A DNA stretch of 64,000 bases from Aureibaculum flavum (GCF_016406085.1 NZ_JAEHFJ010000002.1:310001-374000), one strand, 5' to 3'; shown: positions 5,984-36,478, counted from the first letter of the stretch. Numbers and translations: made by a program. The notes: generated by a model from the sequence alone, not told the origin.

Positions 5984-6012
5984 AACAAACACAAGACGTA
6001 TATATTGAGAAA

Positions 6013-6037
6013 ATAGTATTAAAAACTTCAATACTAT
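6013..6037. promoter_or_regulatory. Inverted repeat ATAGTATT-N9-AATACTAT upstream of araC-type gene
   Basis: Perfect 8-bp arms (6013-6020 and 6030-6037) with a 9-bp spacer, about 95 bp before the AraC-type start codon. It shares the ATAGTA word with the dyad at 5960-5983, so the two look like a pair of related sites, compatible with autoregulation. There is no T-run, so a terminator is unlikely. Confidence 0.4.
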
Positions 6038-6129
6038 CAATAAAAATAGTTCTACAGCAACACTTCCAAATATAAATCGTAATTTGTCACTTTATAGATA
6101 TTATATTACCATTCTACAAATTAAATATT

Positions 6130-14573: not shown

Positions 14574-15755
14574 CTAACTGTTTAAGATTATACATGCCCT
14601 TGATGTGTGGTAAGGTGCTTTCCACATACTTACTTTATCTTCCCCTCTATAAGGTTTACCGTTTTCATCTACCCGGAAAAACCATTCCCCATTTTTATGG
14701 TCTATTAGATACTTTTTTGTGAATTCCCAAATCTTTAATGAACTTTCAATGTACTTCTGATTCTTTTTTAAATTATAAGCATAATTCAACCCTACAAGTG
14801 CTTCTACTTGGGGCCACCAATGCCTATCCGTATCAATATGATTGTTATCTAAATTCTTTTCATTTATTACAGCCCCTTCACTATCTATACCCTCATTTAA
14901 AAAAGAATCAGCTATCATTATTGCTAATTTATTTGCTTTATTCAGCAATGCTTCATCTTCAACAAGCTTAGCTGCTTCTATCAATAACCAAGCTGCTTCA
15001 ATATCATGTCCATAAGAAATAGAATTGCCTAACAAATTCCATTGATCATCAAAAAACAAATCAAAATGATTATTAGAATTAAGAAATTTTTCAAAGAATA
15101 TTTCAATCAAATGTTTTAATGATGCTTTTAACTCGCTATTATCACAAATTTTTAACAAAGCGGTATATGCTTCTAAAATATGAAGGTGTGTGTTCATCGT
15201 TTTAGATGCATTCATATCCTTTTCACTCAATCTCATATCTTGTATTGGACTCCAAGTTTCATTAAATGCCTCGAAGTAGCCAAAATCCGCATCATCTTTG
15301 GCATATTTCTCTAGGAGTTCAAAAATTTCTAGTGCCCAAATTTTAGCCGCTTCATTTTCTGTAAACATATAGTATTCTGAGAGTGCATATATCGTAAAGG
15401 CTTGAGCATAAACTTGCTTTCGCTTATTTATTGGTTTCCCTTCATAGTCTAACTCCCAATAAACACCTTTATGGGTTTCATCTTTAAAATAAGTCTTTAA
15501 ATACATATAAGCTCTATCGCACCCCCCCTTGTATTCGTTTGTTTTTAAATGAATTGAAGCTGCTGAAAAAGACCAAAGAATTCGGCTATTTAAAATAATA
15601 CCTTTAGAGGCTTTTGGCACTACCCTATTGTAGTGATCAATTTTACCCAAAAAACCACCATAACTATGATCTAACGTATTAAATGACCAATAATTAAGTA
15701 CATTTATCAACTCAGCGTTCAGTTCGTTTTTAAGTTGTGAATAAGCATTAGACAT
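14574..15755 (-). CDS. AGE-family epimerase, probable cellobiose/mannobiose 2-epimerase
   Basis: This 393-residue cytoplasmic protein of the N-acylglucosamine 2-epimerase (AGE) superfamily has an (alpha/alpha)6 barrel; WSFNTLDHSYGGF at the N-terminus and DTDRHWWPQVEALVG near residue 315 (active-site His/Trp) are characteristic of cellobiose 2-epimerases. In the known mannan pathway of Bacteroides it converts mannobiose to mannosyl-glucose, the substrate of the GH130 enzyme encoded immediately before it. The ATG at 15755 begins two bases after the GH130 stop; a GTG at 15758 is an alternative start. Length is normal. Pathway role rests on neighbours plus family knowledge. Confidence 0.92.
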   Translation of the reverse strand: MSNAYSQLKNELNAELINVLNYWSFNTLDHSYGGFLGKIDHYNRVVPKASKGIILNSRILWSFSAASIHLKTNEYKGGCDRAYMYLKTYFKDETHKGVYWELDYEGKPINKRKQVYAQAFTIYALSEYYMFTENEAAKIWALEIFELLEKYAKDDADFGYFEAFNETWSPIQDMRLSEKDMNASKTMNTHLHILEAYTALLKICDNSELKASLKHLIEIFFEKFLNSNNHFDLFFDDQWNLLGNSISYGHDIEAAWLLIEAAKLVEDEALLNKANKLAIMIADSFLNEGIDSEGAVINEKNLDNNHIDTDRHWWPQVEALVGLNYAYNLKKNQKYIESSLKIWEFTKKYLIDHKNGEWFFRVDENGKPYRGEDKVSMWKAPYHTSRACIILNS

Positions 15756-15757
15756 CA

Positions 15758-16930
15758 CTATAGTTTGCTATTTTTATCTATAAGATTTAGAATTGTTTGT
15801 ACAGAATTTGCGGAAGTGAATTTATCTTCAGGAGAATGCATAACATAATCTAGTAATTTATCAATTGACGAAACCGCAACATGCATTCTAGTATCTGAAG
15901 AAGCATAATAAATATAAACAGTGCCATTATCATCTTCAATCCAACCGTTTGAAAATAAAACATTAGAAACATCGCCAATTCTCTCACCGTTTATTGGAGC
16001 CATAAAATGACCTGCAGGTTGATAGATTACTTTTGAAATATCATTTAAATCTGTCATAAACATATACAATGTATAACGCAAACCTGCTGCGGTATTTCGC
16101 ACACCATGAGCCAGATGCAGCCAACCTTCTTTGGTTTTTATTGGAGCTGGGCCTTGTCCATTTTTTAATTCAAAAACAGTATGATAAATTTTATTATTAA
16201 TTATTTTTTCATTTTCTACAACAGGGTTTGTTATATCATCGATATAACCTAACCCAATTCCACCACCACTACCAACATTTATAAACCCATCTTGCGGACG
16301 TGTATAAATAGCATATTTACCCTTTACAAATTCTGGATGCAATACTACATTTCGTTGTTGGCCAGAACTCGAAATTAAATCAGGCAAACGCTCCCAATCA
16401 ATAAGATCTTTTGTTCTAACTATCCCTGCGTTAGCTGTTGCAGAGCTTGTATCTCCCTGAGGAGCATCAGGGTCTTTACGCTCTGTACAGAACACACCAT
16501 AAATCCATCCATCTTCATGATTAATCAAACGCATATCATAAATATTGGTATCCGGATTTCCTTCAATTTCAGGAATTATGCATGGCTTATCCCAAAATTT
16601 AAAGTGATCTACACCGTTGGGACTTTCTGCAATAGCAAAAAATGATTTACGATCGTTTCCTTCTACTCTTAAGCACAACAAATACTTACCATTCCATTTT
16701 ATAGCACCAGCATTAAAAGTGCCGTTAATACCTATTCTTTCTAATTCGAATGGATTTGTTTTAGGATCAAAATCATACCTCCAATGAACAGGCGTATGAT
16801 CTGCCGTTACTACAGGAAATTTATATCGTGTATAGATTCCATTTGAATTGGAAACAGGTTTATTTTTTTTGCTAATCAATTTAGCATATCTCTTTTTTTT
16901 CTTGGCTATTGTGCCATTTATCTTGTACAT
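15758..16930 (-). CDS. GH130 4-O-beta-D-mannosyl-D-glucose phosphorylase (GH130_1-like)
   Basis: About 390 residues with the five-bladed propeller signature of GH130: [20 protein letters not shown] near residue 73 and NIYDMRL with the catalytic Asp at about 132. The [20 protein letters not shown] stretch is typical of mannosylglucose phosphorylases. It phosphorolyses Man-beta-1,4-Glc to mannose-1-phosphate and glucose in the cytoplasm; no signal peptide is present. The ATG at 16930 sits 4 bp after the symporter stop; a TTG at 16942 would overlap that gene and is less likely. Order symporter, GH130, epimerase is the classical mannobiose uptake and phosphorolysis cassette. Confidence 0.95.
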
Positions 16931-16934
16931 ATAA

Positions 16935-18773
16935 TTAATCAATTTTTTCTTCTAATTTATTCCACCAGAACTTCTTTAATAGCACTAAACATATTACTAA
17001 AACAATAAGAGAAATATAAATAGGCGTTTGTTGTCTAAAAATGATATACATTGGTAAAATTACCAACGTTGTCTGTGCGGTTATACCAATTAGTACATTA
17101 AACATGTCCATACCAAAACTTTCATTCTTTTTGAAATTCGGATCTTCAATTAGTAATTTATCATGTATTGGTTTCCAGAACCCCCATGGTTTAACATTTT
17201 TATAGAATTTTTTAAGAACGGCTTCGTCTGTTGGCGGAGCAGAATACGTTCCTATTACAGAACCTATTAATGATGCCAATAGCAACCAAGGAAATAGATA
17301 TAAACCTAAAACATCTGGAAACAGTTCTGGAATAACCGCTGCAGATACTAAACCAGCAACCATACCCCAAAAGAAACCTTCGCCATTAAACCTCCACCAG
17401 TGCCATTTTAAAATATTTGCTCCGACGTAACTTCCATATAAAACAGAGACTATCCATTGCAATACTGAATTTACATCCTTTGCAAATAATCCTAAAATTA
17501 TACTCACAATAACTACGATTACACCAGTTATATAGTTCATATTTCTTATCTCTTTAGGATTCGCATCTGGCTTTTTATATTTTAAGTAAATATCATTCAC
17601 TAAATATGCTTGTGCAGCATTTAAAGTGCCAGCAAATGTTGACATAAATGCAGCAATTAATCCCGCTAACAAAAGCCCCAATAAACCTACTGGTACAAAC
17701 TGCTGGATAGCCGTTGGCAGAATCAGTTCAAAATCAATTTCTCCCGCAGAATTTAATAAATCTAATTTTTCATAATAAATTAAAGCCAAGGCTGCAAAAC
17801 CTGCAATCATTAAATACCTAATTGGCATTAGAATTACAGATACAAACCCACTCATTTTAGAAGCTTCGGCCGCTGATTTTGTAGATAATATTTTCTGCAT
17901 ATCGTAATTCGGAGCTGGCCCTGCTACACTTACCAGCAATCCTTTAAAAACCATCATCATAAAGAAAATTGTAAATAATCCAAATCCGTCTTCTTTAATT
18001 TTATTATTAACCTCAGGGATTATATGCGTCCAATCCAAATTCAATTCCCATCCAAAAAACGGACTCATCCAACCATCAGGCACATTCAACGTGTTACTTC
18101 CAACGGCTTGGAACCCTAAATAACCAATAACTAGAGCGGCTACAGTCATAATTCCAAATTGAACAACATCTGCCCATACAATTCCAGACATACCTCCTAA
18201 TAATGAATAGAATACTGCAAAAAAGGTAAATATAGTACCATAAAAATGTGGTACATACTCTGGTGTAACATCAAAGGGAACATAATTACTTACCATTTCC
18301 CATGGAATAAAAATTTCAATAAACTTACCAAGTCCTATAAACCCATAGGCTAAATAACCCAAGCACATTATCAATGCAAAAATGACCACAATAACATGTG
18401 ACAATTTTGCTCCTTTTGCAAACCCAAAACGTGTACCTATCCATTCAGCACCCGTAGTTGCGTTTGAACGCCTCAACCATTTAGACAAGTATACCATCAA
18501 GAAAACCTGATTGAAAACAGGCCATAGCCATGGAATCCATGCACTTTTAATTCCGTAAACAAACATTAAAGTTACAAGCCAAATTGTGCCAGAAATATCA
18601 AACATTCCTGAGGCATTGGAAAGCCCTAGCAAATACCAAGGAATGGACTTACCTCCTAATAAATAATCATCTTTACTTCGTTGTGCTCTTTTTTTAAGCA
18701 CAAGTCCAATTATAACTATAGTAAGCAAATACAATAAAATAATTACAATATCTACTGTGTTGAGTAATTTCAT
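16935..18773 (-). CDS. Sodium:solute symporter (SSS family), probable mannobiose/mannooligosaccharide importer
   Basis: A 612-residue inner-membrane protein with about 13 hydrophobic segments. The N-terminal motif [20 protein letters not shown] is typical of the sodium:solute symporter family, and [22 protein letters not shown] near the middle is the conserved SSS core signature. It is the only sugar transporter of the mannan operon and lies between the GH26 (24 bp upstream) and GH130 genes, so it most likely imports mannobiose or mannosyl-glucose with sodium. The family also includes monosaccharide carriers, so mannose or glucose transport is possible. Confidence 0.9.
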
Positions 18774-18796
18774 AGGTTGGTTGTGGTTAACTTTAA

Positions 18797-19948
18797 TTAA
18801 TTTTTTAACTCATTAACATCTTTTAAAAACAGTGTTTTCGGTAGCTTTTCGAAATTTTTAAAATCACTTTCACTAGAATGTCCTTTATAAGGCATATAAT
18901 GATGATCAAGTCTGCCGTTTCTCCAAAACAACACCCAAGCAATCCCTGAATTTTCTAAACTAGGGTATAACACCTCTGAATACCAATTTTTAGTAGGAAT
19001 TGTTTCTAACCCTGTTTCGGTAAAAGCATAAAGCTTGTTCTTTTCTTTAGCAATACTTCTTACGAGGTTTAAATCATTAACAACTGATGCCGTATAGTCT
19101 TTTGCATTATTGAAATCATAAATATCAATACCCAAAATATCTACATAATCATCTCCAGGATAGTATTTCAAATAATCATCTGAAGGGTTTAATTTATTTG
19201 GTGAATAGGCATATAATAAATTGTGCACATTATGAGTATCTCTGAGCAACTGTACTGTTTCTTGCCATAATTGCTTGTATTCGGTTGCTGTACAATTTGG
19301 ATCTCCCCACCAAAACCAAGCCCCATTCATTTCATGAAAAGGTCGAAAAACCATAGGTATCGGTTGATTATTATATTTCAATGATTTTATGAACGTTGCC
19401 ATTCTTTTCACCCAAAGTTCATATTTAGCCCTATGCTTACCTCCTTTAATAATATCGGCAACGGCTGGTGTTTTATCCCAAGAGTCCCCATCGGTTGTTG
19501 GGTTATCTGCATGCCAACTAATAGTTATAATACCGCCCTTTTTATGAGCATCAATCATAAGTTTTTTCATAGTGACAAATGAAACGCTATCCAAATTTCT
19601 ATCAGAAGCCAGTTCAATACGTCCTAAATCAAAACCATAAACAGCAGGAAAATCTCCAACCACCTCATTTACATCACTTTTAACAACTACACTATCATCA
19701 TTTTGTTTCCAACTGATACCATAAGATGTTGCGTCTTGATGTCCAATGGCAAAACCTTTTTTTGAAATTTCACTTAATTTTTGATAAAGATTCAGACAAC
19801 TTTCAGAGGCATTTTCATCAACCAACAAAGGCTCTTTTTCTTTTTGTTTTTGAGCACTAGTACATGAATAAAAAGAAATCATTAACATGAATACTAAAAC
19901 AGATTTACAGTAGAATTTAAGGTTATTATTTTTAATATAGATCATCAT
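18797..19948 (-). CDS. GH26 beta-mannanase lipoprotein
   Basis: This 383-residue protein carries a lipoprotein signal (MLMISFYSC, Cys29) and a complete GH26 domain. The catalytic acid/base Glu206 is in FRPFHEMNGAWFWW and the nucleophile Glu311 in AFTETGLE; ITISWHADNP near residue 141 is another family segment. It would cut beta-1,4-mannan to short oligosaccharides, probably mannobiose, at the outer membrane or in the periplasm. It is the first gene of the operon that continues with the symporter, GH130 and epimerase. Upstream lie a TAAATTTG promoter-like box and a large palindromic operator candidate. Confidence 0.95.
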   Translation of the reverse strand: MMIYIKNNNLKFYCKSVLVFMLMISFYSCTSAQKQKEKEPLLVDENASESCLNLYQKLSEISKKGFAIGHQDATSYGISWKQNDDSVVVKSDVNEVVGDFPAVYGFDLGRIELASDRNLDSVSFVTMKKLMIDAHKKGGIITISWHADNPTTDGDSWDKTPAVADIIKGGKHRAKYELWVKRMATFIKSLKYNNQPIPMVFRPFHEMNGAWFWWGDPNCTATEYKQLWQETVQLLRDTHNVHNLLYAYSPNKLNPSDDYLKYYPGDDYVDILGIDIYDFNNAKDYTASVVNDLNLVRSIAKEKNKLYAFTETGLETIPTKNWYSEVLYPSLENSGIAWVLFWRNGRLDHHYMPYKGHSSESDFKNFEKLPKTLFLKDVNELKN

Positions 19949-19993: not shown

Positions 19994-20001
19994 CAAATTT
20001 A
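19994..20001 (-). promoter_or_regulatory. Candidate -7 promoter element of the GH26 operon
   Basis: On the minus strand these bases read TAAATTTG, an exact match to the Bacteroidota TAnnTTTG box, 46-53 bp before the GH26 start codon. No TTTG -33 box is evident at the expected distance; instead the 20018-20043 dyad occupies that place, as expected for a promoter controlled there. Confidence 0.5.
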
Positions 20002-20017
20002 GCGATACTAAAATTAT

Positions 20018-20043
20018 GATATTGATATTATTTTATCAATATC
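20018..20043. promoter_or_regulatory. Operator candidate 1: GATATTGATA-N6-TATCAATATC
   Basis: A perfect 10-bp inverted repeat with spacer TTATTT, centred at about 20030, some 82 bp before the GH26 start and about 30 bp beyond the -7 box. The same core and even the same spacer recur before the GH5 gene (21515-21546), and the core recurs at 31560-31579. The 162-bp gap holds no gene. Probably the binding site of a dimeric regulator; its identity is not in the visible genes. Confidence 0.65.
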
Positions 20044-20110
20044 TTAAATTATTATTACGATATTAAGAGGAGATAGGTGAATTTTAGCCCATTGCTTGTA
20101 AAAAAGTTCT

Positions 20111-21478
20111 TTACTTCTTTAAAAACTTTTTAGAAACGCTTCCTTTTTCAGTTGTAATTCGCAAATAATACATACCAGAAGTTAGCTGAGACACATCCAG
20201 TTGATTATTCTCTATGGCTGCATTGATTACTATTTTACCATCAATAGAATAAACGAGGGCTTCTCCTGATTCTTGCAAACCTTTTATTTGAATTTGATTT
20301 ACGGATGGATTCGGAAAGATAGAAATATAACCAAGTCCAAAATCATCAATTCCAGCTGTATTACAAGCATCTTTAATAAGAGCTGTTACGCTTCCATTAT
20401 TCACATCCATATAATTAATCTGAGGTGCAATACCATTCCAAAGTGTAGATTCGTTGTATTGCCAGCCCCATGCTCCAAAATAACCATTATCATATAAGTA
20501 ATCATATGCTGCATTTGAAGGATAACCAAACCCCGTCATTAGTGACTCCGCTTCTACCGCATGAAATTCACCAACCATAACTGGCTTATCTAGGTCCCAA
20601 TAACTTGCTGGATGATGAAATGGTGAAATAGAAGAGGATTGCCAATTATAATAATGCACTTGATAAAAATCCAAAGTACCATTATTAGCACCTCCAGCTG
20701 CTATTAATTCCGCATCTGAATAATAATTTTTCTGATGTACATTTGAGGAAACAATTTTATCTGTATTCGCCAACATTGACCAAGTTCCATTGGTAACAAG
20801 AGCATCAGGATCAGCATCGTGAATTGCACCCGCTAATTTATTCACCACCATTTGAACATCTGCCATCGAAATTTTAACTGGAGTCCAACCAAATTGAGTT
20901 GTCATCCCTTCGGGTTCATTAAAAATTTCCCAACTCATAAGTGCAGGATGATCCTTTACCCCATTTACCATTGGTGTTAAGGCATTATCTATATAAGATT
21001 GTACATTAGTTGATGATTTTAAAAATGCTAAGTTACCGTCATAATTGATATTGGTCCAACTTTTAGCTGTTGGGTCTTGTAACATATCAAAAGAAAACAA
21101 ACTAATATTTACCAGCACATCATTTGACCAAGCGGCGTCTAACACATCTCTTATCTGATCTATAATTTGCTGATTGGTTAATGAATGATGTAAGCCAATA
21201 GTATTGCCATTTGACTGTATCTCTGGTGTAAAGGCAGCATCCGTATGGAGCCACCAACGTACAGAATTACCTCCTGAAGCCTTTACCTCTGAAAAGAAAT
21301 TATTAAAATAGGTCAGATTTGGATTCGTACTAAACCCAACATCTCCACTAAATTGATTCCATGCTAAATTTGTTCCACTTAAAAATAAATTTTGGCAGTT
21401 CACCTCTATAGTATTCTGAGCTTCTAACCCAAAAACCATTAAAAATCCAAGTATTAATATGTATCTATTTTTTGACAT
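20111..21478 (-). CDS. Secreted GH5-family glycoside hydrolase (mannanase/glucanase-like) with T9SS sorting domain
   Basis: This 455-residue protein has a signal peptide (MSKNRYILILGFLMVFGLEAQ), a GH5-like TIM barrel (LFLSGTNLAWNQFSGD near residue 31, NSVRWWLHTD near 71) and a T9SS type A sorting domain over the last ~75 residues (ISIFPNPSVNQIQIKG). Glu188 in WEIFNEPEG is the likely acid/base and Glu304 in VMVGEFHA the likely nucleophile. It would be released or anchored at the cell surface by T9SS, unlike the lipoprotein mannanases next to it. It stands alone, 163 bp upstream of the GH26 operon, with its own copy of the operator. Mannan specificity is inferred from context; cellulase or another beta-glycanase activity is possible. 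Confidence 0.85.
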   Translation of the reverse strand: MSKNRYILILGFLMVFGLEAQNTIEVNCQNLFLSGTNLAWNQFSGDVGFSTNPNLTYFNNFFSEVKASGGNSVRWWLHTDAAFTPEIQSNGNTIGLHHSLTNQQIIDQIRDVLDAAWSNDVLVNISLFSFDMLQDPTAKSWTNINYDGNLAFLKSSTNVQSYIDNALTPMVNGVKDHPALMSWEIFNEPEGMTTQFGWTPVKISMADVQMVVNKLAGAIHDADPDALVTNGTWSMLANTDKIVSSNVHQKNYYSDAELIAAGGANNGTLDFYQVHYYNWQSSSISPFHHPASYWDLDKPVMVGEFHAVEAESLMTGFGYPSNAAYDYLYDNGYFGAWGWQYNESTLWNGIAPQINYMDVNNGSVTALIKDACNTAGIDDFGLGYISIFPNPSVNQIQIKGLQESGEALVYSIDGKIVINAAIENNQLDVSQLTSGMYYLRITTEKGSVSKKFLKK

Positions 21479-21514
21479 AAATTATCCCTTTGTAAATATA
21501 AGAATCAATCTAGC

Positions 21515-21546
21515 TATTAATATGGTATTATTTTATCATATTAATA
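21515..21546. promoter_or_regulatory. Operator candidate 2: TATTAATATGGTA-N6-TATCATATTAATA
   Basis: Thirteen-bp arms matching at 12 of 13 positions (one G.T) with the spacer TTATTT, identical to operator candidate 1. It is centred about 52 bp before the GH5 start. On the minus strand TATATTTA (21493-21500), one mismatch from TAnnTTTG, lies about 30 bp from its centre, the same geometry as at the GH26 promoter. It is in the 399-bp gap between GH5 and the divergent susC, so it could act on both. Confidence 0.6.
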
Positions 21547-21732
21547 AAGTATAATTTCACCTCAGTGAATTGATAAGCAACTCCAATAAATATTTTAATT
21601 AAATCTTCTGCTGCAAAGACTATTGGCATAGGAAATAAAAAATTTAAATGTTAAAAAAACACTTAAAAAACACACGATTCATTTATAATAAATAGGATTG
21701 TAAATGTTAATTAAAAACAAACTAGAAAATAT

Positions 21733-21797
21733 TTTATTGATAAATGACAAAATAATATTAACATTATATTAACTTTAAGTATAATTTTGGTATTGAT
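21733..21797 (+). promoter_or_regulatory. susC promoter region with TAATTTTG box and two ATTGATA half-sites
   Basis: The 399-bp gap 21479-21877 has no gene. Upstream of susC it carries TAATTTTG (21782-21789, a TAnnTTTG match 89 bp before the ATG) and two ATTGATA words (about 21736 and 21791) that equal one arm of the operator found at the GH26 and GH5 promoters. No full dyad is formed. The promoter call is a motif match only. Confidence 0.35.
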
Positions 21798-21877
21798 AAA
21801 AACCTACTAGTTAAATTGAGTATTCTATAATTTATTGTCAATAAAAATTAGAATAAACTAGGCTAACTTAAATACAC

Positions 21878-24800
21878 ATGCAAAAATTAAATTCAAAAAT
21901 CATTTATTGTAATGTACATCGCTATTATTTGGTATTATTATTTGGTTTAATAAGTCAATTAATTATAGCTCAAAATAGTGTTAGTGGTGTAGTCTCTGAT
22001 CCTGACGGATTACCACTTCCAGGCGTTAATATCATTGAAAAAGGAACTTTAAATGGAGTCTCCTCTGATATTGACGGAAATTATGTAATAACCGTAAAAA
22101 AAGGTGCCACCTTAGTTTATAGTTTTATTGGTTTTCAAAATAAAGAAGTTAAAGTTGATAACAAAACAGTTATCAATATTTCATTAATAGAAGATGCTCA
22201 AAGCTTAGACGAGGTTGTAATTATTGGTTACGGATCACAACTTAAGGAAGACATAAGTGGTTCTGTGGCGACAATTGACACGGAAGCTCTTGAAACCATT
22301 CCGCAAGTTAGTATAGATCAAATGATGCAGGGCCGTGCTGCTGGAGTTAGTATTACCACAAATTCAGGCCAACCCGGAAGTTCCGTTTCTGTGAGAATCC
22401 GTGGTGTGAATTCAATTTCGGGTTCGAGTGAGCCACTATATATCATAGATGGCGTTCCTGTTTCTGGTGATTCTGGAGGAGATACAAGTCCTTTAGCTTC
22501 GTTAAATCCCAGTGATATCGAATCTGTAAATATTTTAAAAGACGCGTCTGCTACAGCAATTTATGGATCAAGAGGTTCTAATGGTGTTGTTATTATTACT
22601 ACTAAAAGAGGTAAAAACAGCAAAGGCACTTTTAACTATAGCACATTTGTAGCAGTGCAAGAACCAACAAACATTATAGAAGTACTAGACCTTCCAGGAT
22701 ACGCAAGATTGCAAAATGAAATTAATGAAATTTACGGTTTAAATCCCGTTGTTTCCTATTTAAGACCAGAATTATTAGGTCCAGGTACTAATTGGCAACA
22801 AGAAATTTTTGACAATGCTTTCATGCAAAATCATCAACTATCATTCTCTGGCGGAAAAGAAGGAATAAATTACTTTTTATCTGCGGGTTATACAGATCAA
22901 GATGGTACTGTAATTGGTTCTGCTTTTGATCGTGTTTCAATTAGGTCTAATATTAATGCAAAATTAAATGACAAGATAAATGTTGGTATGAATTTAACTG
23001 CAAGTCGTACCAACGAAAAATTAACTTTAAATGGTAGAACTAATGGTGTAATTGGATTATCACTATTAAATAATCCTGCCATAGCAGTTTACAATCCTGA
23101 CGGATCATTTGCTGGACCAAGTCTTGATGATGATTATCGTGTAGAAAACCCAATTGCAAAAGCGTTGAGTCTGAGTAATGATTTAAGAAAAAATAGAATT
23201 CTTGGAAATATATATGCTGAATTTAAACTTTCTAAAAACTTAACGTATCGCTCTGAATTCGGGGGTGATTTCGGAAGTAATTTGAATACGCAATTTACAC
23301 CTCGCTATTCTTATGGAGAAATAGAAATTGGAACCAACACATTAAGTATAACAAATCAACACAATGATTTTTGGATTATAAAAAACTTACTGACCTATCA
23401 TAATAATTTTAATGACAAACATGATTTCACATTGTTAGTAGGAACAGAATCACAAGAATCAAGCTGGGGAGGTGTAACCTCTACAGATGGAGATTTTGTA
23501 GGTAATGAGGTGCCCATTTTAGGTACTGGAGATGCTGATGATAATAGCACACAATATAAAGGTAGTCAGGCATTACAATCTTATTTTAGTAGGATGATTT
23601 ATTCTTTTGATAACAAATACAGTGTTACAGCTTCCATACGTGCTGATGGATCTTCTAAATTTTCTAAAGGTAATAAATGGGGCTATTTCCCTTCTATATC
23701 TGGTTCGTGGAAAATATCTAATGAAAGTTTTATGGAAGACATTGCAGCCATACAGGATTTAAAAGTATATGGTGGATATGGTGAAGTTGGTAATCAAAAT
23801 ATTCCAAATTTCGCTTATGGATCTAGGTTGACTCCTGTAAATACCGGACTAGGTACTGGTTTTTTACTAACCAATTTTTCAAATCCAGATTTAACATGGG
23901 AATCATCAACGCAAGCAAATATTGGCTTAGACTTCAGCTTACTAAATTCTCGTTTAAAAACGACGATAGAAGTTTATAATAAGGTCTCAAAAGATTTCTT
24001 ATATCAATATGCTGCAACTGATTTTATAACCGGAGGTAGTGCTTCTGGTGCCATTGGAGCTCCTTGGGTTAACTTAGGTGAAATGGTAAATAAAGGAATT
24101 GATGTTACGTTGAGTTATAGTACCGATGACGATGGCGATTTTTCATGGAACTCAGCTCTTTCTGTATCTCATTACAAGAATGAAGTAACCGATTTAGGAA
24201 ATGTTCCTGCAATAAACGGCACCATGAATATTAATTATGACGGTGAGCAAAATATTACGATAACTCGAGCTGGAGATCCTTTAGGTCTTTTCTACGGATT
24301 AGAAGTTGAAGGCCTCTTTAGAACTGTAGAAGACTTTGAAGGAGCTGCCATTCAATACGGAAGACCATTTGAAGACGCTCTTTTTGCCACCACTTGGTTA
24401 GGTGATGTCAAATATAAAGATCAAAATAATGATGGAATTATTGATGACAATGACAGAACAGTAATTGGTAATCCACATCCTGACTTTACTTTTGGATTTC
24501 AAAATTCATTTAGATATAAAGACTTCGATCTATCTCTATTTTTACAAGGCTCTTACGGAAATGATGTTTTTAATGGAATAGGCAGATTACTTACCTCTGG
24601 AAATAGAACCTATACCAATCAATCTCCTTCAGTTTTAGACTTTTGGTCAGTAGATAATCCTGACGCTAATTCACCACGACTAGCTAGAAACGACACACGT
24701 AATATAGATATATCTGACAGGTATATTGAGGATGGTTCTTATCTAAGAATTCAGAACATAACCTTAGGCTATACGTTACCTTCATTTTTTTCAAAAAAAG

Positions 24801-24979
24801 CTGGATTAAGTAAGTTAAAATTATACGGAAGTATACAAAACTTATATACGTTCACAAATTATAGCGGATATGATCCAGAAATTGGATCTTACAATCAAAA
24901 CCCTTTATTGACAGGTATTGATGCTGGTAGATACCCATCTCCTCGAACTTATACCATAGGAGTTAACGTTGAATTTTAG
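21878..24979 (+). CDS. SusC-like TonB-dependent outer-membrane receptor
   Basis: A 1033-residue SusC/RagA protein. After a signal peptide ending near residue 32 comes a carboxypeptidase-D-like domain (SGVVSDPDGLPLPGVNI, about residues 36-105), the TonB-box-like DEVVIIGYGS near residue 111, a plug domain with LYIIDGVPV and SATAIYGSRGSNGVVIITTK, and a beta-barrel ending in an aromatic C-terminal strand (IGVNVEF). It imports oligosaccharides across the outer membrane, powered by TonB, together with the SusD encoded next. Being first in the operon with two binding lipoproteins and divergent to mannan enzymes, it most likely takes up mannan or glucomannan oligosaccharides. Confidence 0.97.
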   Translation: MQKLNSKIIYCNVHRYYLVLLFGLISQLIIAQNSVSGVVSDPDGLPLPGVNIIEKGTLNGVSSDIDGNYVITVKKGATLVYSFIGFQNKEVKVDNKTVINISLIEDAQSLDEVVIIGYGSQLKEDISGSVATIDTEALETIPQVSIDQMMQGRAAGVSITTNSGQPGSSVSVRIRGVNSISGSSEPLYIIDGVPVSGDSGGDTSPLASLNPSDIESVNILKDASATAIYGSRGSNGVVIITTKRGKNSKGTFNYSTFVAVQEPTNIIEVLDLPGYARLQNEINEIYGLNPVVSYLRPELLGPGTNWQQEIFDNAFMQNHQLSFSGGKEGINYFLSAGYTDQDGTVIGSAFDRVSIRSNINAKLNDKINVGMNLTASRTNEKLTLNGRTNGVIGLSLLNNPAIAVYNPDGSFAGPSLDDDYRVENPIAKALSLSNDLRKNRILGNIYAEFKLSKNLTYRSEFGGDFGSNLNTQFTPRYSYGEIEIGTNTLSITNQHNDFWIIKNLLTYHNNFNDKHDFTLLVGTESQESSWGGVTSTDGDFVGNEVPILGTGDADDNSTQYKGSQALQSYFSRMIYSFDNKYSVTASIRADGSSKFSKGNKWGYFPSISGSWKISNESFMEDIAAIQDLKVYGGYGEVGNQNIPNFAYGSRLTPVNTGLGTGFLLTNFSNPDLTWESSTQANIGLDFSLLNSRLKTTIEVYNKVSKDFLYQYAATDFITGGSASGAIGAPWVNLGEMVNKGIDVTLSYSTDDDGDFSWNSALSVSHYKNEVTDLGNVPAINGTMNINYDGEQNITITRAGDPLGLFYGLEVEGLFRTVEDFEGAAIQYGRPFEDALFATTWLGDVKYKDQNNDGIIDDNDRTVIGNPHPDFTFGFQNSFRYKDFDLSLFLQGSYGNDVFNGIGRLLTSGNRTYTNQSPSVLDFWSVDNPDANSPRLARNDTRNIDISDRYIEDGSYLRIQNITLGYTLPSFFSKKAGLSKLKLYGSIQNLYTFTNYSGYDPEIGSYNQNPLLTGIDAGRYPSPRTYTIGVNVEF

Positions 24980-25001
24980 TAAAATCAAAAAAAGCAAGAC
25001 A

Positions 25002-26564
25002 ATGAATAATTTATTAAAAACAAAATTTATAGTAATGGCAGTACTTTTATTGTCATTGACTTCTTGTGGTGAAGATTTTTTGGATCGTCCACCTGAAGAT
25101 TCTTATAATGTTGCAGATTTTTATAGTACTGAAGCCCAAGTGGGAGCTGCAACAAATGCATTATATGCAACACCATGGTATAATTTTAACACCAATACCA
25201 TATGGTGTATAGGTGAATTAAGCTCAGGTAATGGCCGTACATGGGATCCAAGAAATGCGGATTTCACAAATTTCGCAATTAATGGCAATCATAGTACTTT
25301 AACCCAAGCTTGGGAATCGCTTTATGCCGTTGTAGGCCAATCAAACTTTGTCATTAACACATTACCTAATGCCGTAGACCCAAGTATTTCTTTAGAAACC
25401 GTTAATAATGCTGTAGGTGAGGCCCGGTTTATAAGAGCCACTGCTTATTTCTATTTGGTAAGAATATTTGGAGCTATCCCAATTATCGCTAATAATGACG
25501 ATTATGTGCTAGAACCTGTGGTTCCTCGTAATCCAGAAGCTGATGTATATAAATTTATCAAATTAGATTTAGAGTACGCAGTTGCAAATCTTACAAATAC
25601 TAAAACCTCAGTACCTGGAAAAATTTCTAGTAATGGAGCAAAAGCAATGCTTGCTAAAATATACTTATATGAAAAAAATTATCCGAAAGCTTATCAATTA
25701 GCTGAAGAAGTTATTAATGCCGGTGAATTTAAGTTATATGGTGGTGATGCTGAAGATGGTGATCCTAACGGAAGTTATTATGACTTATTTAAACCAGAAA
25801 ACGACAATAATTCAGAGTCCATTTTCGCTTTACAATGGGCGAGTTCAAGCAGGTACGCAGAAGGAAATGGGATTCAATCATTATTTGCACCTTCTGGTTT
25901 TACTGGTGGCTCAGATGGTTGGTCTGCAATAGGACCATCACCTGATTTATTAGAAGCCTATGAAGATGATGATTTGCGTTTTTACGCAACAATTACAGAA
26001 CCTGGAGCTTATTATCCAGATTTAAATGGTGGATATACGGTACCAGATAATGTTGATTTTCAAGGAACAGGCCATGGTCTTAAAAAATATGTAGTAGGTA
26101 GTGATGATGCTGTTGCTCGTGGAGATGGTAGTGGACAAACCACAACATCAAATAACACGTATATATTGAGGTATGGTGAACTTTTGTTAATTCATGCAGA
26201 AGCTGCTCTAAATGGTGGCGGTTCGGTTTCGGAAGGTATTAAATCTTACAATAAAATACGTCGCAGAGCTGGATTAGATGAAAAAACAGCACCAACTTTA
26301 GATGATGTTTTTCAAGAAAGAAGAATTGAATTGGCTTTTGAATTTGAATTTTGGTATGATATAGTAAGACAAGGTCCTGCGTTTGCAACGGAGTTTTTAA
26401 GTAATACTGACCGAGGTACGTTTGATAATAGCGTAACACCATCAGCCTTAAATTCAGCTTTCTTTTCAGCTGGAGCGGACGACCTACTATTCCCTTATCC
26501 TACAACTGAAACTCAAAACAACCCTGCGTTGTTAGAATCTCCTGTACCTTATGTTTTTAATTAA
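25002..26564 (+). CDS. SusD-like surface glycan-binding lipoprotein
   Basis: A 520-residue SusD/RagB protein starting at the ATG at 25002, which gives a clean lipoprotein signal (MAVLLLSLTSCGEDFLDRPP); an upstream TTG that overlaps susC is unlikely to be the start. The FLDRPPEDSYNVADFY segment and the C-terminal YNKIRRRAGLDE and ERRIELAFEFEFWYDIVRQG motifs are typical. The TPR-rich fold caps SusC and binds the incoming glycan at the cell surface. It lies 22 bp after susC and 18 bp before the next lipoprotein gene. Ligand is inferred to be beta-mannan or glucomannan. Confidence 0.96.
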   Translation: MNNLLKTKFIVMAVLLLSLTSCGEDFLDRPPEDSYNVADFYSTEAQVGAATNALYATPWYNFNTNTIWCIGELSSGNGRTWDPRNADFTNFAINGNHSTLTQAWESLYAVVGQSNFVINTLPNAVDPSISLETVNNAVGEARFIRATAYFYLVRIFGAIPIIANNDDYVLEPVVPRNPEADVYKFIKLDLEYAVANLTNTKTSVPGKISSNGAKAMLAKIYLYEKNYPKAYQLAEEVINAGEFKLYGGDAEDGDPNGSYYDLFKPENDNNSESIFALQWASSSRYAEGNGIQSLFAPSGFTGGSDGWSAIGPSPDLLEAYEDDDLRFYATITEPGAYYPDLNGGYTVPDNVDFQGTGHGLKKYVVGSDDAVARGDGSGQTTTSNNTYILRYGELLLIHAEAALNGGGSVSEGIKSYNKIRRRAGLDEKTAPTLDDVFQERRIELAFEFEFWYDIVRQGPAFATEFLSNTDRGTFDNSVTPSALNSAFFSAGADDLLFPYPTTETQNNPALLESPVPYVFN

Positions 26565-26582
26565 TAATTAATGTTAAAGATT

Positions 26583-27680
26583 ATGAAAAATATCAACTTT
26601 TTAAAAAATATAATTTCACGATTATTTTTAACACTATTTGTCGCTCTTTTATTTAGTTCTTGTGAAAACGATTTTATTGGTGACGAGGTTGCAACTCAAA
26701 CACGCCCACCTGTAATTACAAGTGTTAGCGAAGCTAGAGAAGACAAACCCGTCACCCAAGGCGTATTAGAAGGCACTTATATTATTCGAGGTGAAAATTT
26801 CGCATCACTTACTTCAATCCAATTTAATGGTTATTCAGCATCATTAAAACCTGCATTAGGCACTGACAAAATTATCTTTGTACAAATTCCGGAAAACGCA
26901 CCATTTGTTGGGCAAGAGAATAAGTTAACACTTGAAAATCCTTATGGTACAATCAACTATGATTTCTCTTTACTTACAATAACCGGATTTACTGAAGGAA
27001 CAAAAGATGGTAAAAAAGTTGTGAATTTATTGGGTGGTGATTTTTCTGAAACCAAATCTATCACATTTGTAAGCGGTACAGAAGAGCAAGGAAATTTAAC
27101 GGAACTGCCCTCTCCAAATTTTACAGTAATTTCTCCATCAGAGGTTGAAGCTGAAGTACCTTCTGGTGTAGAACAAGCATTTATATATTTAGAAACAAAT
27201 GGAGGAGCTATCGCTCAATCTGACTCCTACGGATTTAACTATTCCGTTTATATTGATGGACTTAATCCCGATTGGAGCACTAGTGAATGGGGAGGTACTC
27301 ATGACATCGCTTCTACAGAGATTGCCTTAGGAGACTTTTCTATTAAAAGTGTTCGCGAAGCTTGGTCTGGGTTAACTTTCTTACCACCAGCAGGTTTTGG
27401 TTATAAAACCTATACAGCAATTACAGTTTCAATATATGGTACTGGCGATGCTGGTGATTCAGTAACGTTAGCAATTAATGACTTTGACGGAGCATCTACA
27501 GCACAAAAGTTAGAACTAATTCCTGGTAAATGGACTAAATATGTAATACCATTAGCTAATTTTTATCCATCTGGTGGAGCTCCTGATAACCTAACAAGAT
27601 TAGATTTTCAAGAATCTTCCAATACCGGTAAGCCAAATTACACATTCTATGTTGATGATTTTGGGTTTATAAATCAATAA
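26583..27680 (+). CDS. Surface glycan-binding lipoprotein with IPT/TIG domains (SusE/F position)
   Basis: About 365 residues. The start at 26583 gives MKNINFLKN and a lipoprotein signal ending in LLFSSC; an ATG at 26571 would add four residues. Two immunoglobulin-like IPT/TIG-type modules follow (PVITSVSEA with GTYIIRGENFASLTSIQFNG, then ITGFTEG with NLLGGDFSETKSITFVSG), and the C-terminal ~150 residues (YIDGLNPDWSTSEWGG to FYVDDFGFINQ) form a probable beta-sandwich carbohydrate-binding module. Position after susCD and the domain plan match known surface glycan-binding proteins of beta-glycan loci. No catalytic motif is seen. Ligand unproven. Confidence 0.82.
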   Translation: MKNINFLKNIISRLFLTLFVALLFSSCENDFIGDEVATQTRPPVITSVSEAREDKPVTQGVLEGTYIIRGENFASLTSIQFNGYSASLKPALGTDKIIFVQIPENAPFVGQENKLTLENPYGTINYDFSLLTITGFTEGTKDGKKVVNLLGGDFSETKSITFVSGTEEQGNLTELPSPNFTVISPSEVEAEVPSGVEQAFIYLETNGGAIAQSDSYGFNYSVYIDGLNPDWSTSEWGGTHDIASTEIALGDFSIKSVREAWSGLTFLPPAGFGYKTYTAITVSIYGTGDAGDSVTLAINDFDGASTAQKLELIPGKWTKYVIPLANFYPSGGAPDNLTRLDFQESSNTGKPNYTFYVDDFGFINQ

Positions 27681-27727
27681 TCGAAACAAAAGAATTTTAG
27701 AGTAATCAATACTAAAAAACATTTATA

Positions 27728-30229
27728 ATGAAAGCATCCAAACTGAAATATAGTTTTTTGTTCATAGTCATATCATTCGCATTACTAACTTCTTGTAAGG
27801 ACGAAGATGATTTATTTCCACAAATAAGCAAGAGTGTAAAAAACATTACAGAGATAGCTTCACAGAACCCTGAGTTATCTACGTTTTTAAGTGCCTTAAA
27901 ACAAACAGGATTAGACTCAACGTTTAGTACCGCAACAACATTTACCGTTTTTGCTCCTAAAAACGATGCTTTTACAGGTTTAAATTTAACAAATCTTAGC
28001 AATGATTCACTTCAAAACATTCTATTAAATCATGTATTAAGTACTGTTACACCTGATTTTACAGCCAACATGACTACTGGTTATTTAACCTCTATGGCAA
28101 CAGGACCTGACGGTAATAATCTTAGTTTTTTTACTGATAACAGTGATGGTTTAAAGTTTAACGGAATGGCATCTTTGGCAAGTGGAATGTATGATATTGG
28201 AGCAACCAATGGTATTGTACATGTTGTTGATGCTTTATTAACACCTCCAACCGTTCTTGATCATGTAAAAGCGAATCCAGAATTTTCAATGCTCGCAGAA
28301 GCCATTGAAAAATCGGATATAAAAGACGTTTTAGATGCAAAGGATAGCTTATTTACCTTATTTGCACCAAGTAATGCCGCTTTTGAAAAATTTATGATGG
28401 ACGCAAACGGAGCATTCGGATGGACGTCTTTAGATGACATTCCCATGGATGTTCTTAACCAAGTATTGCTATATCATATAGTCTCTGGAGAAAATATTTT
28501 ATCTTCTTTAATAGATGGAACAGCACAAACAAGTATGCAAGGAGAATCTTTTGACATTTCAGGCACTTCTATTAATGATGCATCCTATACAGACGCTACC
28601 ATCAATTTAACCGATGTGCAAGGCGTAAATGGTGTAATGCATGGTGTAGACAAAGTATTGCTAACGGAAGATGTTTTTCAAAGTATTTTAAGTGCCACAC
28701 TTAACATGGTTGAAAGATGTGAAGACAGAGGGTTTTCAACTTTTTTAGCAGCCATTGAAAAAGCTGGAATGACAACGATGTTAGCAACAGATGACTTAAC
28801 GGCTTTCGCTCCAAATAATGATGGTTTTAATGCGTTATTCATATTAACTGAAAATTTTGAAAGCCTAGACGATTTTGATACTCCCGAAGAGTTAGCGGTT
28901 TTAAAAGATCTATTAAATTACCAATTGTATGCTGGTCAACTTTCAGCAGGAGATTTAACAGATGGAGGATCGGTTACAACATTATTTGGAGACACTTTTA
29001 AAGTAGATTTGAGTGGAGACAATCCAAGATTGAAACCCTCTTTTACGGATGCCATACCTTCCGGATTAGTAACACCAAATATCGGATCTAGTAATGGTAT
29101 TATTCATGAAATAAATAGAGTTTTAATTCCACAAGCATTATTAGGTGCCTTAGGCATTGTGGTTGACCAAGGTTGTAATGGACCACATCCGGTAGGAGAT
29201 CCAAATTTAGTATTCTTTGACTGGGATGCTAATGGCCCTTGGTGGGGAGCCGTAGCTGCAGAAAATGATGCAGCATTAAGTTTGGATGGTTCTAGTTATG
29301 GTAGAGCTAATTTTACGACATCAGGGGGAGGCTGGAATGATATGTATTGGAGAAATGATGGAAGCACATTTAATGGAGCAAGCACTGTAGGCACCAACTT
29401 AAACGATTATGTATTAAAATTTGATATCCGTACCATTGAACCTATATCCGCAGGAGCATTTAAATTTAGATTCCGTAGTGATGCAAACGACGCATTTTAC
29501 GATTGGAAACCTTGGTCTGATACTGGTGAAGCATTAGATACTGAAGGAGGGTGGATTACGATAGAAATTCCATTATCAGCACTTGGACAACCTGATTTTT
29601 CAGCTGTAAATCAAGAATTCGGGATGGCATTTGAGGATGGCGGAGCAGCAATTTTATTAAATTTTGCTATAGACAATGTTCGTTTTGACGCTCCTGATTA
29701 TAGCTGTGGCGGACCAGATCCCGTTTCAGATTCAAATTTGGTATTCTATGATTGGGATGCTAATGGTGCTTGGTGGGGTGCCGCAGCTGCCGAAAATGAT
29801 GCTTCCATAAGTTTAGATGGTTCGAGCTACGGTAGAGTTAATCTCACCACGGGAGGTGGAGGCTGGAATGATATGTTTTGGAGAAATGACGCTAGCACAT
29901 TCAATGGAGCAAGCACTGTAGGTACCAATATAAACGACTATGTTTTAAAATTTGATCTCTATACCATTGAACCAATAGCTGCAGGAACTTTTAGATTTAG
30001 ATTTCATAGTGACGCAACTGATGCTATTTATGATTGGCAACCTTGGGTTGATACTGGTGAAGCACTTGATACTGGAGGTCAATGGGTCACTTACACAATA
30101 CCGCTATCCGTTATCGGACAACCTGATTTCGGTGCAGTGAATCAAGAATTTGGATTGGCAATCGAAGATAATGGAAATCCATTATTGTTAAATTTCGCAA
30201 TTGACAATGTAAGGTTTGAAGCTAATTAA
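27728..30229 (+). CDS. FAS1-repeat lipoprotein with two tandem C-terminal beta-sandwich modules
   Basis: An 833-residue lipoprotein (signal ending ALLTSC, Cys23). Three fasciclin (FAS1) domains follow at roughly residues 37-172, 175-313 and 325-468, recognised by TFTVFAPKNDAF, FTLFAPSNAAFEKF, TAFAPNNDGFNAL and the NGIVHVVDALL / NGVMHGVDKVLL / NGIIHEINRVLI motifs. After a linker come two closely similar modules, residues 491-667 and 668-833, beginning with LVFFDWDANGPWWGA and LVFYDWDANGAWWGA and ending in FAIDNVRF. These look like glycan-binding beta-sandwiches. As last gene of the susCD operon it probably binds or presents mannan at the surface. FAS1 domains mediate adhesion elsewhere; the combination is unusual and its function is unknown. 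Confidence 0.8.
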   Translation: MKASKLKYSFLFIVISFALLTSCKDEDDLFPQISKSVKNITEIASQNPELSTFLSALKQTGLDSTFSTATTFTVFAPKNDAFTGLNLTNLSNDSLQNILLNHVLSTVTPDFTANMTTGYLTSMATGPDGNNLSFFTDNSDGLKFNGMASLASGMYDIGATNGIVHVVDALLTPPTVLDHVKANPEFSMLAEAIEKSDIKDVLDAKDSLFTLFAPSNAAFEKFMMDANGAFGWTSLDDIPMDVLNQVLLYHIVSGENILSSLIDGTAQTSMQGESFDISGTSINDASYTDATINLTDVQGVNGVMHGVDKVLLTEDVFQSILSATLNMVERCEDRGFSTFLAAIEKAGMTTMLATDDLTAFAPNNDGFNALFILTENFESLDDFDTPEELAVLKDLLNYQLYAGQLSAGDLTDGGSVTTLFGDTFKVDLSGDNPRLKPSFTDAIPSGLVTPNIGSSNGIIHEINRVLIPQALLGALGIVVDQGCNGPHPVGDPNLVFFDWDANGPWWGAVAAENDAALSLDGSSYGRANFTTSGGGWNDMYWRNDGSTFNGASTVGTNLNDYVLKFDIRTIEPISAGAFKFRFRSDANDAFYDWKPWSDTGEALDTEGGWITIEIPLSALGQPDFSAVNQEFGMAFEDGGAAILLNFAIDNVRFDAPDYSCGGPDPVSDSNLVFYDWDANGAWWGAAAAENDASISLDGSSYGRVNLTTGGGGWNDMFWRNDASTFNGASTVGTNINDYVLKFDLYTIEPIAAGTFRFRFHSDATDAIYDWQPWVDTGEALDTGGQWVTYTIPLSVIGQPDFGAVNQEFGLAIEDNGNPLLLNFAIDNVRFEAN
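29198..30229 (+). repeat. Intragenic tandem duplication of a 177-codon module
   Basis: Units 29198-29728 (531 bp) and 29729-30229 encode the two C-terminal modules of the FAS1 lipoprotein. They share long stretches almost unchanged, such as GGGWNDM-WRND and STFNGASTVGTN, and differ mainly at surface-type positions. The period is exactly 531 bp. The second copy ends at the stop codon. This is a relatively recent in-frame duplication. Confidence 0.9.
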
Positions 30230-30251
30230 TATCGTTTCAGTAGAAGATAAT

Positions 30252-30285
30252 AAAACCGCTATACTTTAAAAAGTATAGCGGTTTT
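30252..30285. terminator. Strong intrinsic terminator after the susCD operon
   Basis: A 15-bp perfect stem, AAAACCGCTATACTT (30252-30266) and AAGTATAGCGGTTTT (30271-30285), with a 4-nt loop lies 23 bp after the FAS1 gene. The arms carry A and T runs on the outside, so it can end transcription from both the susCD operon and the convergent GH5 gene. Confidence 0.85.
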
Positions 30286-30390
30286 AAAAAAACATTAGTT
30301 CTTATTGATTCATAAGTTGTAACTCAATAAAGTAATTATTAAATCTTTCTCACTTTTTCAAGAAACCATTCTGAGATTTAAACTTTTATT

Positions 30391-31401
30391 TTAGTATTTA
30401 TAACTCTGTAATTTCTTTTTAAAATACTTCCCATGCCTTGATGGCGTATATTTATCATCAATAAAAAGACGTGGTGCCCATTCTTTATCAAAAACCCAAA
30501 CCACATAAGAAATACCTTTTTCATCTGAATAATTAGTAATAGCATCACCATAAGACTCATCACTAACTACAGGAGAATGAGCTCCAGGATCTTCAGGACC
30601 GCTAAAACCAATTTCTGTTAAAATTACTGGATATTTATCTTTTACAAATCCCCAATCTTTTGTCCATTTTTCCTCCCATGGCTTTTCACGTTTTTGAGGA
30701 TAAGGATGAGAAACATAAGCTATCCCTTCAACATCCAAAGGACTATCTTTTACTGGAGTAAGGTCATAGGCCCAATTGAATCCGGCAACTAACGGAATAC
30801 CTTCTCCTCCATTGGCCCGAAGAATGCCAATCATTTCTTTATTTAGTTCTTTCCATTGCTCCCATGTAATTGTTCCCAATTCATTATTATAAGTAGTAGG
30901 TTCATTAAAAAGCTCATAAAAAGCTACAGTTGGATTCTTTCCATATTTTTTACCTATGGTCCTCCAAAAATCAAAGGTTTGTTTTTTATCTGTATCATAC
31001 ATATCATGTTGATACATTTCAGTACGTAAATTCCCGATACTATGCCAGTCTATTACAACATACATTCCCAATTCACCTGCCCATTGAATACCATCGTCTA
31101 AAAGTTTTAGATACGCATCTTTACCTCTTTTCTTCCATGCTGTTGGATGTACAGGAAACCGCACCAAGTTAGCTCCCCAATGCTTCATTTCTTCGAAGTA
31201 TGATTTATTCCACAACTGTTGACGCTCAAGTTTATCAGGATCACTAGTATTTAGACCTCTAAAAACTGCAACTTTCCCATCTGCTTTCACAAAGCTATTC
31301 CCAGAAACACTAACCCTACTTAAGACTTCTTGAGCATGCACAAAATTAATAGCAAGAAGTAAGATAAAAGTTGCTACCGTTTTATTCAAAAAAATTTTCA
31401 T
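30391..31401 (-). CDS. Secreted GH5-family beta-glycanase (endoglucanase-type)
   Basis: A 336-residue protein with a signal peptide (cleavage near NFVHAQ) and a single GH5 barrel. FRGLNTSDPDKL near residue 48, VRFPVHPTAW near 80, VVIDWHSIGN near 115, acid/base Glu167 in FYELFNEP and nucleophile Glu263 in VILTEIGFSG are visible. The fold is of the bacterial endoglucanase type rather than the GH5_7 mannanase type, so it may cut glucan or glucomannan. It has no sorting domain and no lipobox, so it is periplasmic or released. It is monocistronic with its own operator candidate 158 bp upstream, shared with the mannan promoters. Confidence 0.88.
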   Translation of the reverse strand: MKIFLNKTVATFILLLAINFVHAQEVLSRVSVSGNSFVKADGKVAVFRGLNTSDPDKLERQQLWNKSYFEEMKHWGANLVRFPVHPTAWKKRGKDAYLKLLDDGIQWAGELGMYVVIDWHSIGNLRTEMYQHDMYDTDKKQTFDFWRTIGKKYGKNPTVAFYELFNEPTTYNNELGTITWEQWKELNKEMIGILRANGGEGIPLVAGFNWAYDLTPVKDSPLDVEGIAYVSHPYPQKREKPWEEKWTKDWGFVKDKYPVILTEIGFSGPEDPGAHSPVVSDESYGDAITNYSDEKGISYVVWVFDKEWAPRLFIDDKYTPSRHGKYFKKKLQSYKY

Positions 31402-31559
31402 GATTTTATTTTTATAAGATTATTACTATTTTGATTAGCAGTTAAAAAGTGCTACGCCTATTCTATTATTTAAATATTGGCTATGTAAACATTGAATAGA
31501 TACGTAAAGGTCTTCATAAAATTTATAAAAATTTTACACTTGAATGTTTAGTTTATAAG

Positions 31560-31579
31560 ATTGATAATATAGTATCAAT
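31560..31579. promoter_or_regulatory. Operator candidate 3: ATTGATA-N6-TATCAAT
   Basis: Perfect 7-bp arms (31560-31566 and 31573-31579) around a 6-bp spacer (ATATAG), with the same core and spacing as the dyads before the GH26 and GH5 genes. It lies in the 326-bp gap 31402-31727, 158 bp upstream of the GH5 start. No TAnnTTTG box was found at the matching distance. The rest of the gap shows no supported gene. Confidence 0.5.
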
Positions 31580-36148: not shown

Positions 36149-36263
36149 TATATTAAATTTTATGATTATCAAATTCTAACAAAAAAACTACAACTTAGAA
36201 AATTTTATTGTGATCTAAATTCCACTAGTTTCTATGTAAATATATTTAACATAAAGCTAATAA

Positions 36264-36271
36264 CAAATCTA
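36264..36271 (-). promoter_or_regulatory. Candidate -7 promoter element of the GH9 operon
   Basis: On the minus strand these bases read TAGATTTG, an exact TAnnTTTG match, 116-123 bp before the GH9 start. It sits in the 330-bp divergent gap 36149-36478 between GH9 and the GPH symporter. A weak TTTA-like -33 match lies 18 bp upstream. Nothing else was recognised in the gap. Confidence 0.35.
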
Positions 36272-36478
36272 TTTCGTTCAAAATACTTGTAAAAAACACA
36301 CATTACAACAATTGTATTATTGCACGCTTCATCATTTATACTAGTTTATTTTGTATTGGATTATTTTTACACTGAAATACGACAGTTACTTCTTTACCCA
36401 TAATTGATTTTTTTTGAAAAAGAACAAATGATATAAGCTTTACTCGAACCATTAATTAGTTAATTCTTTAAAAACAAA

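Follow-up and report, generated by a model that had tools for sequence, protein, structure and literature searches.

What switches on the genes for beta-mannan utilisation in Aureibaculum flavum? The question is raised by a stretch of 64,000 nucleotides (GCF_016406085.1 NZ_JAEHFJ010000002.1:310001-374000; hereafter, the window) that holds a beta-mannan utilisation locus with, on one side, genes for a GH26 enzyme, an SSF symporter, a GH130 enzyme and an epimerase (by Pfam matches) and, on the other, susC, susD and a surface glycan-binding protein gene, followed by GH5, GH26 and GH9 genes. In the polysaccharide loci of marine Bacteroidota the enzymes are well described and the regulation poorly. 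An initial annotation of the window had proposed that a shared inverted repeat precedes three transcription units of the locus, and had found no obvious regulator among the two in view, an AraC-type gene (araC, 6130-7002) and a hybrid two-component system (HTCS) gene (62534-63970). Here, we argue that the shared element is an asymmetric one, and that it is very likely the operator of the AraC-family protein, a one-component activator that would switch on the locus.

All three inverted repeats were found where they had been reported, with the arms and 6-bp spacers described. Dyad 1 (20018-20043) reads GATATTGATA-TTATTT-TATCAATATC and has 10-bp perfect arms; dyad 2 (21515-21546) reads TATTAATATGGTA-TTATTT-TATCATATTAATA, with 12 of 13 arm positions matched; and dyad 3 (31560-31579) reads ATTGATA-ATATAG-TATCAAT, with 7-bp perfect arms. 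Dyads 1 and 3 are of the ATTGATA type that had been claimed for the whole set, but dyad 2 is not, having in common only TGRTA...TATCA and the spacer. Dyads 1 and 2 do share the spacer TTATTT, the reason being that these bases belong to the sequence that is recognised. Exact ATTGATA-N6-TATCAAT (14 specified bases) occurs twice in the 4.75-Mb genome, at dyads 1 and 3 in this locus, and since these are the only exact matches their clustering is above chance. When up to two mismatches are allowed there are 132 genome matches versus 80 for the reversed control; with up to three, the count within the window is at chance level (16 versus 16.7 expected). Sites for FNR have the spacing TTGAT-N4-ATCAA, and an FNR-like reading was rejected because the spacing in the dyads is N8.

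What orthologous promoters from about 20 other genera conserve is a 16-bp box, TGAYAAAATNNTATYA, that is asymmetric and has a set orientation. GH26 homologues were found in 32 further genomes of the family, with few exceptions from other genera. A 16-mer identical to the GH26 box of the window (TGATAAAATAATATCA), the "spacer" included, lies upstream of GH26 in eight relatives, and more distant homologues carry variants such as TGATAAAATCATATTA and TGACAAAATTCTATTA, in which the symmetry is lost. The same box emerged de novo when 18 araC-GH26 intergenic regions were searched for motifs (18.4 bits versus 11.4-11.7 in shuffles). The distance from the box start to a TAnnTTTG-like -7 element, a promoter element established together with its numbering (T at -12) for Flavobacterium johnsoniae (PMC6847099), is 37 bp in 17 and 38 bp in 3 of the 20 relatives with a recognised box. 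The susC promoters of relatives, which lie outside the training set of the matrix used below, carry a near-invariant TGACAAAATAATATTAAC, 37 bp from TAATTTTG or a similar sequence.

Perfect arms of 10 and 7 bp at dyads 1 and 3, in an exact form unique to them genome-wide, are what one would expect of true palindromic operators bound by a homodimeric LacI-, GntR- or Crp-type regulator encoded elsewhere. The symmetry, however, is not kept: the arms shrink to 0-3 bp in the susC sites of relatives, many GH26 sites are asymmetric too, and 10-bp arms occur at the GH26 site of the window only. The centre of the box, AAAAT, which a dyad would treat as spacer, is among its best-conserved parts, and the box keeps a fixed orientation towards the gene and a fixed distance to the -7 element. 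The dyad model was therefore rejected, and we consider a palindromic operator very unlikely; the symmetry is a local coincidence atop a partly self-complementary half-site. What stands of the original proposal is a shared element before mannan transcription units, upheld by its specificity and conservation, and what falls is its dyad nature.

To locate the box in the window we used a held-out matrix, built from the GH26 sites of relatives only. It ranked the GH26, susC and type IX secretion system (T9SS) enzyme promoters first, followed by dyad 3 and a site upstream of araC (scores in Table 1), before dropping to 13.5; in shuffled windows (n=30) the best match scored 14.3 on average and 18.3 at most. 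When a -7 element at 36-39 bp was required, the first three remained, and after them came only a weak minus-strand site at 6111 (12.0) and noise below 5. TAnnTTTG at a fixed place, as in a Bacteroidota sigma-ABfr promoter, is present at GH26 and susC and is weaker at the T9SS gene. The susC promoter had been described as carrying two single ATTGATA arms; these exist, but they flank a perfect asymmetric site, TGACAAAATAATATTAAC (21745-21762), which was overlooked because it is not palindromic. This site makes susC a full member of the set, alongside the T9SS enzyme and the GH26 operon, all three with putative sites in promoter configuration. The T9SS gene had been termed a GH5 gene; its sorting domain is there, but GH5 is not seen in Pfam at E<=1e-5.

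Genome-wide, TGAYAAAATAATATYAAY has exact matches at GH26 and susC alone and zero one-mismatch matches. A composite pattern of box and -7 element likewise finds only these two promoters (control 0), and a looser version adds two further poor matches; the T9SS gene is missed by such patterns because its box ends in TACCA. The element has thus passed both checks that the initial annotation had proposed for it, a genome-wide scan (the exact consensus being confined to the GH26 and susC promoters) and a comparison of orthologous promoters (the box lying upstream of GH26 and susC in relatives). The same confinement to two mannan promoters argues against reading the box as a promoter or upstream element general to Bacteroidota, or, at site 1, as part of the terminator of the upstream gene, even though the box is AT-rich, keeps a fixed distance from the -7 element and, as dyad 1, lies 68 bp past the stop of that gene. 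Moreover, the box is present at loci of AraC orthologues and absent from those of paralogues, and it persists between araC and GH26 where these are divergently oriented and no transcript terminates. We regard such an explanation as extremely improbable.

The box has a partner. In 43 aligned promoters of relatives, a degenerate second copy lies exactly 21 bp upstream, giving a matrix peak at -21 (z 5.07) that was reached by 0 of 500 column-permuted matrices. Many GH26 promoters face araC, so the test was redone away from that gene: the peak persists in deduplicated promoters not adjacent to araC (n=22, z 4.86) and is also seen in araC-adjacent ones (n=38, z 4.21). In the window, the distal copy is present at GH26, susC and the T9SS gene. 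In classical AraC operators the half-sites are asymmetric, lie next to the promoter and form a direct repeat at a spacing of about 21 bp, and the element described here shows this arrangement, with half-sites about two helical turns apart.

Which protein, then, might recognise it? The product of araC has a C-terminal double helix-turn-helix (HTH_18 3e-21, HTH_AraC 2.6e-14; profile matches to the MarA, SoxS, XylR and AraC structures), strongly conserved among 17 orthologues. Its N-terminal half, well conserved among orthologues, has a weak match to AraC_binding that falls below the cut-off (E 0.068). The genome has one such AraC, the next best AraC-type proteins being 33% identical. Among relatives, the gene divergent from GH26 is an orthologue of this araC in 18 of 29. 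A blind search of 397 genomes with the composite pattern gave 55 matches in 37 genomes, versus 8 for the reversed control; of those examined, most precede susC, GH26, SSF or an MFS transporter gene 80% identical to that of the window, and they usually adjoin an AraC orthologue, including at loci with susC but no GH26 alongside.

We also picked 80 loci from named genomes by AraC similarity alone, from Flavobacterium, Winogradskyella, Tenacibaculum, Salinimicrobium, Leeuwenhoekiella, Muricauda and others, plus Fulvivirga and Roseivirga. Box and -7 element stand in the right geometry in 74 of these, directly beside araC in 72, versus 0/20 loci of paralogous AraC proteins and 0/80 shuffles. The box is kept in a second family of the same order; at orthologues about 50% identical, from other families of the class, it is eroded or missing. 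In relatives it is separated from the start codon of araC by 34-78 bp, which makes autoregulation plausible. Motif, orientation, spacing, repeat, conservation and association with AraC are all supported by the computation. The regulator that had not been obvious now has a candidate through this association with orthologue loci, and araC very probably encodes the cognate regulator of the box, although the evidence is correlative.

An AraC-type DNA-binding domain is found in the HTCS of the window too, and this protein or one of its relatives could bind the box in place of AraC, the more so as the predicted sites of Bacteroides HTCS are direct repeats with an average spacing of 21 bp (PMC3878776). 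However, the regulator linked to the box is a 290-aa protein with an AraC-type domain only, and the box tracks that protein: it stands beside araC in 72 of the 80 AraC-picked loci, and occurs in genomes with susC without GH26 beside it. No good site was found at the HTCS-linked susC2 in the window. In Muricauda sp. MAR_2010_75, the beta-mannan polysaccharide utilisation locus (PUL) is induced as a unit by mannan and the AraC factor is expressed, but the mannan-locus HTCS is not upregulated (PMC9860051). Binding by an HTCS therefore deserves little credence.

Several observations weigh against araC as the regulator of such a set of promoters and should be kept in mind. The evidence for this assignment is wholly computational, and araC lies 13 kb from GH26 in the window, whereas most relatives have the two side by side. 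The arrangement is missing from six of the 80 AraC loci, several of which hold close relatives of the window AraC (L176, L179 and L180); the sequence of L176 stops at a contig end, and L179 and L180 are still within recognisable mannan loci, so the regulon may have more promoters beyond the stretch scanned. A box before araC at 6006 has neither a distal copy nor a -7 element at 37 bp and is a doubtful site. Dyad 3, too, lacks a distal half-site, has no -7 element 36-39 bp away on either side, and scores best on the strand pointing away from the GH5 gene. It had been counted among the shared sites as preceding that gene; the box-like sequence is there, the promoter geometry is not, and its membership is doubtful. 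Orthologues of the GH5 gene have a gene-oriented box in 4 of 13 cases, with a clean -7 element at 37 bp in just one, so GH5 may belong to the regulon elsewhere, but this conservation is not enough to rescue dyad 3.

If the AraC protein is the activator, the operator would consist of two asymmetric half-sites in a 21-bp direct repeat, a strong proximal one (TGAYAAAATNNTATYA) and a degenerate distal one (TGNAAWWATNNTAT). With the first T of the -7 element numbered -12, the proximal half-site runs from -49 to -34 and its distal counterpart from about -70 to -55, and an AraC dimer would occupy both on one DNA face, from about -70 to -34. The bound dimer would contact RNA polymerase beside the -33 position, at promoters that lack a good -33 element. 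In the window, the regulon would comprise three promoters, those of the GH26-SSF-GH130-epimerase operon, of susCD and of the T9SS enzyme. What we infer from these patterns is that the protein binds the DNA, that it activates and does not repress, that it dimerises and that a manno-oligosaccharide is the inducer. The Muricauda locus lends independent support to the induction of such loci by beta-mannan (PMC9860051).

Such an arrangement resembles that of the AraC/XylS-family regulators of Escherichia coli sugar operons, the one-component activators AraC, RhaS and XylR, in its AraC-type domain with two helix-turn-helix motifs and its promoter-adjacent direct repeat of half-sites about 21 bp apart. 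It differs from them in that the promoter is a Bacteroidota -33/-7 promoter, the proximal half-site is the stronger, and the ligand-binding domain is only weakly similar to Pfam AraC_binding. With the HTCS regulons of Bacteroides PULs it has in common an AraC-type domain, direct repeats spaced by about 21 bp, and SusCD and glycoside hydrolase targets (PMC3878776), but the regulator here is a soluble one-component protein without kinase or receiver domain. The Muricauda PUL likewise combines GH26, GH5, GH130, a symporter, SusCD and an AraC-type factor (PMC9860051); the text of that paper does not contain the word "promoter" and hence describes no operator. In Muricauda, a protein 79% identical to the window AraC (L190) has a box at its locus, upstream of a GH9b homologue. 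No description of the box motif was found in the literature searched, within whose reach were few subscription papers.

The operator and its regulon are strongly conserved and of a familiar, AraC-type kind rather than a new mechanism. We can tentatively envisage a wider role, which has somewhat less than an even chance of holding, in which one AraC clade and a near-invariant operator-promoter module, with its 21-bp direct repeat, fixed 37-bp spacing to the -7 element and lack of a good -33 element, act as the general master switch for beta-mannan loci in a large part of the Bacteroidota, the module having also been recruited to SusCD and transporter loci without GH26. If so, the operator would predict mannoside-responsive genes from sequence alone. 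For a beta-mannan regulon found in more than 20 genera, the analysis provides a concrete operator, a promoter geometry and a likely regulator, and the operator signature can be used to assign SusCD and transporter genes of unknown role to the mannoside response.

Table 1. Coordinates of the putative operator sites, promoter elements and associated genes in the window
Feature	Position	Strand	Basis
GH26-operon proximal box TGATAAAATAATATCA, inside dyad 1	20023..20038	-	matrix 25.9, window best
GH26 distal degenerate half-site, 21 bp upstream of box	20044..20059	-	direct-repeat test
GH26-operon -7 element TAAATTTG, 37 bp from box start	19994..20001	-	TAnnTTTG consensus (PMC6847099)
susC proximal box TGACAAAATAATATTA, asymmetric	21745..21760	+	matrix 24.6; near-invariant in susC promoters of relatives
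susC distal degenerate half-site	21724..21739	+	direct-repeat test
susC -7 element TAATTTTG, 37 bp from box start	21782..21789	+	box/-7 geometry
T9SS-enzyme proximal box TGATAAAATAATACCA, inside dyad 2	21523..21538	-	matrix 20.2
T9SS-enzyme distal half-site TGAAATTATACTTTAT	21544..21559	-	direct-repeat test
T9SS-enzyme -7-like element TATATTTA, weaker, 38 bp from box start	21493..21500	-	box/-7 geometry
Dyad 3, box-like, doubtful member	31560..31579		score 19.5 on +, 9.8 on -
Single box TGAGAAAATAGTATTA upstream of araC	6006..6021	+	score 18.0
Weak divergent box TGGTAATATAATATCT beside araC	6096..6111	-	score 12.0; TATATTTG (6067-6074) at 37 bp
AraC-family regulator, 290 aa, proposed cognate activator	6130..7002	+	HTH_18 3e-21; orthologue loci
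Target operon: GH26 (18797-19948), SSF symporter, GH130, epimerase	14574..19948	-	Pfam
Target T9SS-sorted enzyme	20111..21478	-	Pfam E<=1e-5: Por_Secre_tail alone
Targets susC and susD	21878..26564	+	SusC/RagA family; SusD families in Pfam
GH5 gene that dyad 3 precedes; uncertain whether part of the regulon in this genome	30391..31401	-	Cellulase/GH5 in Pfam

The intergenic region between EamA and araC (5726-6130) holds several box-like sequences (6006 +, 6111 - and 5950 +). The 6006 box is a possible autoregulatory site. The 6111 site is directed away from araC, as in relatives, and may be a decayed copy of their araC-divergent promoter.

The promoters of relatives show some further features. 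In their susC promoters (e.g., L047, L054 and L055) there is an extra conserved TTAAC block at offset 24-28 from the box start, between box and -7 element and 11 bp downstream of the TTAAC that ends the box; GH26 promoters do not have it. The box also stands at 37 bp from a -7 element before a GH9b-like gene (L056, L057, L188 and L195) and before an MFS gene (L146, L147 and L205) about 80% identical to window positions 36479-38092. Because relatives have boxes at those genes, the GH9b/MFS intergenic region of the window (36172-36479) was searched for the box, and none was found. Only three orthologues of the T9SS gene were found; two of them have an oppositely oriented box that lacks the -7 element.

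AraC orthologues 78-82% identical occur in another order (L176 and L179, from Fulvivirga and Roseivirga), and the Roseivirga copy has homologues of mannan-locus genes beside it (GH5b, 77%; susD, 68%), which suggests horizontal transfer of the locus. Finally, the window has long perfect inverted repeats in intergenic positions at 30251-30286 (17-bp arms), 57493-57525 (16-bp arms) and 2065-2096 (13-bp arms), which are probably intrinsic terminators.

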